DNA from: Nitrospirota bacterium
Lineage (GTDB): Bacteria; Nitrospirota; 9FT-COMBO-42-15; HDB-SIOI813
Direction of reading: 5' to 3'
NCBI GenBank assembly: GCA_020851375.1
Contig: JADZCV010000026.1
Location: 1-59,105, forward strand
Length of the DNA: 59,105 nt
Part shown: positions 1 through 58,978 of the stretch, piece after piece
Layout of the letters: each line of letters begins with the position of its first letter
Position numbering within the stretch: position 1 is the stretch's first letter
Made by a program: the position numbers and the translations under genes
Notes under the pieces: model-generated
What the model saw: the letters and a program-made list of their open reading frames with translations, nothing else
Databases searched by the model: none
What the model was told of the DNA's origin: nothing

Positions 1-54
1 ACAGATCCAGAGACTGTCGTCCTGCCATTAGACGATCCCCCAGTTTTAGTTGTT

Positions 55-205
55 TTCGCTGAAAAATGCGGGGTACCCATTGCGCCGAAGGCAAATGCAA
101 TGGGTCCTGCGGCGTCAGGACTTAAGATTTGAGCTCCAACGTACAACACAGTACGCCTCAGCTCAAATCTTAAGTCCTTCCTTGCACCTGGGCATTTTTG
201 AGCTA
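55..205 (-). repeat. Long hairpin repeat, family H, copy 1
   Basis: Read on the minus strand this copy has the family's conserved left flank (ctcaaaaatgcccaggtgca), then AAGGA, a 15-nt arm, a GTAC-containing tip, the exact reverse complement of the arm, and TCCTGACGCCGCAG. The arm is CTTAAGATTTGAGCT. It differs at several positions from the copies at 58381 and 58635, yet the opposite arm has changed to match. The right flank of this copy carries an extra segment of about 30 nt that is itself an inverted repeat (CCCATTGC/GCAATGGG). Confidence 0.8.
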
Positions 206-350
206 AAACTGTATTGTTGCTGTATGCTCATACTTACCGTCCAGCCATTCTCAGGTTATGACTTTACAGAAAAAATGCTTTTGTGTCAATAGTTGAAAGA
301 CTATCTGTAGATCTACCACAAGCACGGTATAAGAACTTTCCCACAAGGAT

Positions 351-58108: not shown

Positions 58109-58250
58109 GGGTCGTCCTGCGGACGACCACTTATAGCTTATAGCCTATGGCTTATAGCTGTAAGGTAACATTTTTATAAGTAAGCTGTTATAAGCAATAG
58201 GCTAACAGATAGTTTACAGGACAGAGCATAGCAATGAAGGGTAAAAGAGA

Positions 58251-58345
58251 TTTTTCTCAAAAATGCCCAGATGCGGCGTGTTAGGTAAGCAAACAAGGAT
58301 GTAAGAAATGGCTTTAGACAAGGCGGACGACGAGGAAAGCCGGAG
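58251..58345 (+). repeat. Degenerate family H copy
   Basis: It starts with the family left flank tttttctcaaaaatgcccag but then loses the arm-and-tip structure; gatgcggcgt and caaggatgtaag fragments remain. It lies directly before the intact copy. Confidence 0.6.
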
Positions 58346-58380
58346 GATTTAAGTTAGTAGGAGGTGAATCTAAGGTCGAG

Positions 58381-58504
58381 ATTTTTCTCAAAAATGTCCA
58401 TATGCAAGGAAGGATGTAAGATTTAAGGCGAGGCGTACTGTGTAGTATGTTGAGGCTTAAATCTTACATCCTGACGCCGCAGATGGGCGTTTTTCAGGAA
58501 AATC
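58381..58504 (+). repeat. Long hairpin repeat, family H, copy 2
   Basis: Arms TGTAAGATTTAAGGC and GGCTTAAATCTTACA (one mismatch) enclose a GAGGCGTACTG...GTATGTTGA tip. The outer flanks (tttttctcaaaaatgtcca and tgggcgtttttcaggaaaa) pair too, giving one hairpin of about 120 nt. It ends 2 nt before the 5' end of tRNA-Gly. Confidence 0.88.
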
Positions 58505-58506
58505 TC

Positions 58507-58581
58507 GCGGGAGTAGCTCAGCGGTAGAGTTCCAGCCTTCCAAGCTGGCTGTCGCGGGTTCGAATCCCGTCTCCCGCTCCA
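58507..58581 (+). tRNA. tRNA-Gly (TCC anticodon)
   Basis: A 75-nt cloverleaf with acceptor GCGGGAG/CTCCCGC, discriminator T, encoded CCA, anticodon TCC in loop CTTCCAA. Confidence 0.97.
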
Positions 58582-58582
58582 G

Positions 58583-58599
58583 GGTCGTCCATGGACGAC
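58583..58599 (+). repeat. GTCGTCC/GGACGAC hairpin after tRNA-Gly
   Basis: A perfect 7-bp arm palindrome (gtcgtccatggacgac) starts 2-4 nt after the tRNA-Gly CCA. The same hairpin, with loop tgc, follows tRNA-Tyr (58112-58128), and a degraded one lies near position 15. It may mark transcript processing or belong to family H. Confidence 0.6.
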
Positions 58600-58634
58600 A
58601 GTGAAGAGAGTTTGCAGGGCAGCACAAGGAACAA

Positions 58635-58760
58635 GGTTTTTTCTCAAAAATGCCCAGGTGCAAGGAAGGACATTAAATTTGAGGTGAGGCGTACTAGTTG
58701 GTACGTTGAACCTCAAATTTAATGTCCTGACGCCGCAGATGGGCGTTTTTCAGAAAAAAC
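58635..58760 (+). repeat. Long hairpin repeat, family H, copy 3
   Basis: Arms CATTAAATTTGAGGT and ACCTCAAATTTAATG are perfectly complementary around GAGGCGTAC...GTACGTTGA. The outer flanks tttttctcaaaaatgccca and tgggcgtttttcagaaaaa also pair. It ends 1 nt before tRNA-Thr(GGT). Confidence 0.9.
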
Positions 58761-58761
58761 C

Positions 58762-58838
58762 GCCCTTGTAGCTCAGTCGGTTAGAGCACCTCCTTGGTAA
58801 GGAGGAGGTCACCGGTTCGATTCCGGTCAAGGGCTCCA
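58762..58838 (+). tRNA. tRNA-Thr (GGT anticodon)
   Basis: A 77-nt cloverleaf with acceptor GCCCTTG/CAAGGGC, discriminator T, encoded CCA, anticodon stem CTCCT/AGGAG with GGT in the loop. Last tRNA before tuf. Confidence 0.97.
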
Positions 58839-58844
58839 AATAGG

Positions 58845-58944
58845 AAGCAATGAGTTAGAAAAAGCAATGAGCAATGAGTGTAAAGCAAAGCCGGGTAGTG
58901 GTTTTGCTCATTGCTCATTGCTCATTGCTTTGAACTCATTGCTT
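58845..58944 (+). repeat. Repeat hairpin in the tRNA-Thr to tuf leader
   Basis: Repeated AAGCAATGAG units on the left (58845-58887) are complementary to CTCATTGCTT units on the right (58909-58944), with an outer perfect 10-bp pair (58845-58854 with 58935-58944). The hairpin fills the leader between the last tRNA and tuf. Slipped pairing is possible because the units are tandem. Confidence 0.75.
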
Positions 58945-58978
58945 GCTGACAGGATGCTTAAATAAAGGAGGCTGCAAG

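Follow-up and report, generated by a model that had tools for sequence, protein, structure and literature searches.

The window, that is, the whole 59,105-nucleotide stretch of a draft Nitrospirota genome analyzed here, carries three copies of a long hairpin element, all of them at the 5′ end of a tRNA gene (tRNA-Gln, tRNA-Gly, and tRNA-Thr), an association absent from the initial annotation. That annotation, made from the sequence alone, had described three hairpins whose 15-bp arms differ between copies with compensating changes. The hairpins are present, their arm sequences match those given, and their limits could be refined to the ones listed here. As had been claimed, four arm positions distinguish copy 1 from copy 3, each of them compensated, and the arms of copy 2 hold a single mismatch.

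1-42, minus strand: 5′ part of a tRNA-Gln gene that runs off the contig, separated by 9 nt from copy 1
52-208, minus strand: copy 1, long form, enlarged by a nested 38-base hairpin module; its right end faces the tRNA-Gln start
107-186, minus strand: central part of copy 1 (arms, internal loops, and tip; cmsearch R1, 78.7 bits)
58380-58504, plus strand: copy 2, short form (covariance model match)
58415-58429, plus strand: left variable arm of copy 2, TGTAAGATTTAAGGC
58454-58468, plus strand: right variable arm of copy 2, GGCTTAAATCTTACA, paired with the left arm except at one position
58507-58581, plus strand: tRNA-Gly(tcc), immediately 3′ of copy 2 (ARAGORN and Rfam)
58636-58760, plus strand: copy 3, short form, outer stem adjoining tRNA-Thr (covariance model match)
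58671-58685, plus strand: left variable arm of copy 3, CATTAAATTTGAGGT
58710-58724, plus strand: right variable arm of copy 3, ACCTCAAATTTAATG, fully complementary to the left arm
58762-58838, plus strand: tRNA-Thr(ggt), immediately 3′ of copy 3 (ARAGORN and Rfam)

The tRNA-Gln fragment was read against intact orthologues beside tRNA-Gln(ctg) at two other loci (L059 and L070). The two short copies scored 136 and 125 bits with a covariance model that counts both among its members, and in both the predicted hairpin reaches the first base of the tRNA; the outer stem of copy 2 can be extended to 58378-58506, where it meets tRNA-Gly with zero unpaired bases between them. The genome of the window (G000, a 2.5 Mb draft) holds ~24 copies of the element, and its other copies match with E-values down to 5e-36. 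Elsewhere in the window, a truncated element remnant and a stretch resembling a related family lie between tRNA-Tyr and copy 2 (58250-58275 and 58320-58360), AGCAATGAG-like units stand inverted and in tandem between tRNA-Thr and the start of a tuf-like gene (58850-58950), and an adjacent pair of DnaA-box-like sequences, GTGGATAAC and TGTGGATAAC, is found at 330-375.

The element is ~125 bp long and measures up to ~185 bp between its outer-stem ends when it carries nested hairpin modules. As derived from 94 short copies and 23 tRNA-linked copies, its plus strand forms a single long hairpin closed by an 8-bp outer stem of variable sequence. Inward of this stem come a conserved TCAAAA/TTTTCA segment, an A/T-rich mid stem around CCCA/TGGG that is flanked by AAAAA and TTTTT tracts, and then TGC/GCA. 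An asymmetric and essentially invariant internal loop, TGCAAGGAAGG opposite CCTGACGCCGCA, lies between AAGGAAGG and CCTGACGCC; past the variable arms, GAGG faces TTGA in another internal loop, followed by a CGTAC/GTACG (GTAC) tip with a variable loop. The border is sharp, as pairing reaches 92-95% over the 8 outer positions and then, at the three positions beyond the outer stem, falls to 76, 39, and 20%. The terminal positions read GTTGACGC/GCGTCAAC, with a weak TA outside.

A ~38-base hairpin module (CGACCCATTGC...GCAATGGGTACCCCG, or the shorter ACACCCGCAAGCGGGTACCCG) was seen nested at mirrored positions on the right, the left, or both sides of several copies (among them L128, L130, L136, L117, L121, and window 52-208). 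The module also turns up in, or close to, repeats of a related family. This second repeat (TGCAAGGCGCRCAAATCCTGAGGAATGAGGCGTACT...) has ~20 copies in one genome (G008) and occurs at L014:108-253, at L117:393-536, in the left flank of L065, and at L226-L234.

We collected 140 copies from 12 genomes, most of them from one uncultured Nitrospirota family, and nine further genomes of the family to which the window belongs gave 4-21 matches each. A covariance model built from 53 copies detected the wider superfamily in 74 of the 198 Nitrospirota genomes sampled, which are drafts and in some cases incomplete. The 74 genomes span many families, among them f9, where a genome often has ~10 or more copies. 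Most of the matching public records are metagenome assemblies labelled "Nitrospirae bacterium". Copies in records labelled Deltaproteobacteria and Ignavibacteriae may reflect transfer or mis-binning.

At Rfam's curated cut-offs only tRNA and tmRNA matches passed and no family was returned for the element, and a literature search, with most subscription journals outside its scope, found no paper on the element family. The statement of the initial annotation that no known family is recognised therefore stands for Rfam but is too broad for the general kind: the superfamily is new in itself, and palindromic miniature elements as such are already known. The transposase search that it had proposed returned a single Y1 gene in the genome of the window, and cmsearch over that locus (L138) found no element, which argues against membership in the REP/RAYT system. 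The ~125-bp element also lacks the GTAG or CGTC tag of REPs, and fixed direct repeats at the ends, expected of a MITE with a TA or fixed-length target duplication, were not found. Mobilization by a reverse transcriptase was rejected, RVT_1 being missing from six of nine copy-carrying genomes, several of which are incomplete. The consensus of integron attC sites has RYYYAAC at the 5′ end and GTTRRRY at the 3′ end; the ends of the element consensus are reversed (5′ GTT..., 3′ ...AAC), and an attC site was rejected as well.

Closest in kind are YPAL and the GTAG-REPs. YPAL/RU-2, a ~168-bp palindromic sequence of Yersinia, has no terminal TA, is reported to have target duplications that vary in length (3-26 bp), and is co-expressed with the upstream gene (PMC2229807); compared by description rather than by sequence, it is palindromic like the element, but neither a niche at tRNA 5′ ends nor arm covariation is mentioned in that review. 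GTAG- and CGTC-tagged REPs are 20-40 bp long and mobilized by RAYT (Y1) proteins, and their termini often supply a TAG stop to flanking open reading frames (ORFs) (PMC3733652); the GTAG-REPs share with the element both the palindrome and the stop-supplying termini. ERIC and NEMIS/Correia sequences, of 100-200 bp, form a long hairpin once transcribed and influence adjacent transcripts (PMC2229807), but they have TA termini and a target duplication, whereas the element has no duplication of fixed length. The multicopy palindromes of Geobacter metallireducens (PMC2700814) are intergenic families common to several genomes like the element, a likeness that is one of description only.

The element occupies two niches. 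Wherever a tRNA gene follows within 100 nt, its strand is that of the element (34 of 34 copies), and in nearly all of these copies the gene begins at most 17 nt from the right end of the element; four copies adjoin tmRNA starts, and Rfam confirmed three of these. The lack of inverted copies among the tRNA-linked loci suggests that orientation is selected there. As read from the sequence, tRNA-Pro loci of several genomes carry TTGACA-N17-TATGAT upstream of the element, with a similar arrangement at tRNA-Val, and from these sigma-70-like promoters the tRNA-linked elements are probably transcribed leaders. Clear as these promoters are, a -10 box at constant spacing from the left side of the element is not general. 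RNase P RNA was found in the genome of the window.

The same tRNA loci are occupied across genera, with stem differences compensated and loops unchanged. The copies at tRNA-Leu(tag) in three genomes (G000, G002, and G005) have a common unusual outer stem, which points to orthology. However, not all copies at the same locus are proven orthologues, since two pairs (L090/L102 and L035/L073), each at one tRNA locus, have unrelated left flanks; for the same reason, L035/L073 was ruled out as a case of fast outer-stem change in place.

The second niche is the gene end, where the right end of the element sits at the stop codon of an opposite-strand gene. Among 81 distinct non-tRNA copies, an ORF ended at the right end in 54 and at the left end in 8, as against 1 of 311 control points (simple open-frame calls of at least 100 codons, ending -6 to +10 from the element end). 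The right-end rule was also seen in 16 of 20 loci from other Nitrospirota families, judged from their printed offsets. Usually the element itself provides the stop codon (T|AG or AGT TGA), and the C-termini of ribosome recycling factor and RplX are unchanged compared with element-free relatives. Copies were also found between convergent genes, and one lies directly 3′ of rplX, within a ribosomal-protein operon. The stop codon of ribosome recycling factor is occupied differently in the three genomes compared: by the element in G001, by another palindrome of ~69 bases (AGTTAATTAGGGACAGCG...) in G000 (L205), and by an internally deleted element remnant in G002.

No offset at the element ends showed the clear enrichment of identity expected from a target duplication of fixed length. 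Only L108, L088, L066, and L083 had direct repeats (7-14 bp) close to the two ends; for the 11-bp repeat at L108, comparison with a near-empty site indicates that the ribosome-binding region of the next gene was duplicated. A search of flanks in G008 yielded one usable near-empty site (L223) among eight loci. A sequence similar to AGTTAACT is present at rplX in element-free relatives, but we rejected it as a target or scar, as the motif is not enriched.

The covariation analysis suggested by the initial annotation was run on 23 tRNA-linked copies, in which 98.4% of the 1127 pair cells are paired and 27 of the 49 pairs show two-sided changes. We counted 154 double-change cells, compared with 39 after shuffling and 21-35 with a slid partner, and pairing at slid positions drops to 31-43%, against 98% in the true register. 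On each of the five covariation measures, the observed value lay above all 500 shuffles and every slid control; the shuffle ignores relatedness and the sliding control preserves it, and the gap is large under both. RNAalifold returned nearly the same structure for this set. Across genera, unpaired loops are nearly invariant while the stems vary. Covariation above background combined with conserved loops, the pattern looked for in a functional structured RNA, is thus present, though templating of one arm on the other can inflate a covariation test of this kind.

The two strands are not equivalent. With orientation assigned by profile score, the stem columns of all copies contain 109 G.T against 17 A.C combinations on the plus strand, and the bias is alike in tRNA-linked copies (43 versus 6) and in the remaining ones (89 versus 19). 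The RNA fold of the plus strand is the more stable in 108 of 116 copies (33 of 34 tRNA-linked, 75 of 82 others), by a mean of ~9 kcal/mol. As the plus strand of gene-end copies is antisense to the adjoining gene and the bias is unchanged there, it was probably set in a founding or mobile form rather than by local transcription.

Arm matching differs between genera. In the genus of the window (G000-G002) further copies have complementary arms nearly everywhere, in agreement with the initial annotation. In most copies from other genera of the family, the middle of the arms is an unpaired internal loop, ACAAGGA versus TCCGCAGT, TCCGAAGT, or TCCGATGT, in which changes of the right arm go uncompensated. 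A minority there is fully matched, in both directions. In L076, L130, and L034 the left arm is the exact complement of the copy's own right arm, as it is but for one difference in L046/L069, and in L054, L129, and L136 the right arm is the exact complement of ACAAGGA. Several bases and a one-base length difference are fixed together in these matched arms, and no partial state was seen among the arms compared in related genera. The right-arm rewrites, all in one genome, are possibly a single event, and some of the arms counted as rewritten may instead descend from older lineages that were already matched. Beside an HU-like gene (an identification based on the C-terminus alone), G001 and G000 have one and the same element, recognized by a shared unusual mid stem, in opposite orientations between collinear flanks.

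Template switching has been proposed to create and maintain RNA hairpins and stems (PMC8794818), and between inverted repeats it is reported to homogenize the arms and to invert the spacer (PMC8604942). Whole-arm rewrites that lack partial states and an inversion in place are what hairpin template-switching predicts. The hairpins of PMC8794818 resemble ours in that several bases change compensatorily in one step through hairpin-templated replication; they come from reconstructed histories of RNA genes, whereas here the record is a dispersed, many-copy repeat family.

The reading that we consider probable is that of a palindromic miniature superfamily in which the plus-strand fold is selected and the arms are homogenized by hairpin templating. 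In the pre-tRNA leader, selection would act on the hairpin as RNA; in a mobile form, it would act on the hairpin as either RNA or single-stranded DNA. The hairpin would double as a site of replication template switching, at which a change in one arm is copied to the other in one step. Selection on structure is suggested by the invariant loops, the sharp 8-bp outer stem, the excess of G.T over A.C, the stability of the plus-strand fold, persistence in place, and the fixed orientation at tRNA genes. Templating is suggested by the two-way whole-arm rewrites with repair of a 1-nt length difference, the scarcity of G.U in the arms and outer stem, and the inversion in place; one-step copying would explain how the arms can be perfectly paired yet hypervariable with few wobble intermediates. 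In the mid stem G.U pairs are frequent, and templating would therefore be uneven along the hairpin. The initial annotation had offered selection and templating as alternatives; the data are better fitted by the two jointly than by either alone.

Strong covariation, invariant loops, common wobble pairs in the mid stem, plus-strand stability, and the fixed orientation at tRNA genes would also be accounted for by a structured RNA only, a tRNA leader or small RNA in which point mutations are fixed in pairs by selection and templating is unnecessary. We regard this as unlikely, because wobble intermediates are nearly absent from the arms and outer stem of the tRNA-linked set despite abundant two-sided changes, several of the changes are non-wobble swaps (UA to GC, AU to UA), whole arms including a 1-nt length difference were rewritten with partial states unseen, and the plus-strand bias is equal in copies antisense to the neighboring gene.

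Rather doubtful in our view is a mobile RNA arising from the pre-tRNA leader, in which transcription starting at the tRNA promoter and then an RNase P cut would free a hairpin with a precise right end, and copies would be placed right-end-first at stop codons by machinery sensing RNA or translation boundaries. We see a slim chance that the element is a bidirectional transcription terminator spread to gene ends by selection, with the CCCA..TGGG stem between its AAAAA and TTTTT tracts. A GC-containing stem between A- and T-tracts, at stop codons and between convergent genes, looks the part, but a terminator would have to be read through at the several loci with a promoter upstream and a tRNA downstream, the rplX copy lies inside an operon, and the T-tract is gone while the stem is retained at L198 (tRNA-Phe) and in the tRNA-Thr copy of L031. 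Passive MITE- or REP-like repeats with an unselected structure and arms matched through recent duplication, a possibility raised in the initial annotation, would suit the multicopy state, the near-empty site with its 11-bp direct repeat, and stop-codon-providing termini like those reported for GTAG-REPs (PMC3733652), but are very improbable given that the arms differ among most copies in the genus of the window, changes at the same tRNA site are compensated, loops are invariant across genera, and pairing collapses when the register is slid.

With many diverged copies per genome, some mismatched, some matched, and one inverted, the superfamily is a natural record of stem repair, and with close strains it allows a direct test of whether compensatory changes originate by paired selection or by template switching. 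It also suggests that a mutational mechanism can inflate covariation statistics, which are usually taken to prove that an RNA is functional. A superfamily placed with base precision at tRNA starts and gene ends, and without an Rfam entry, merits a name.
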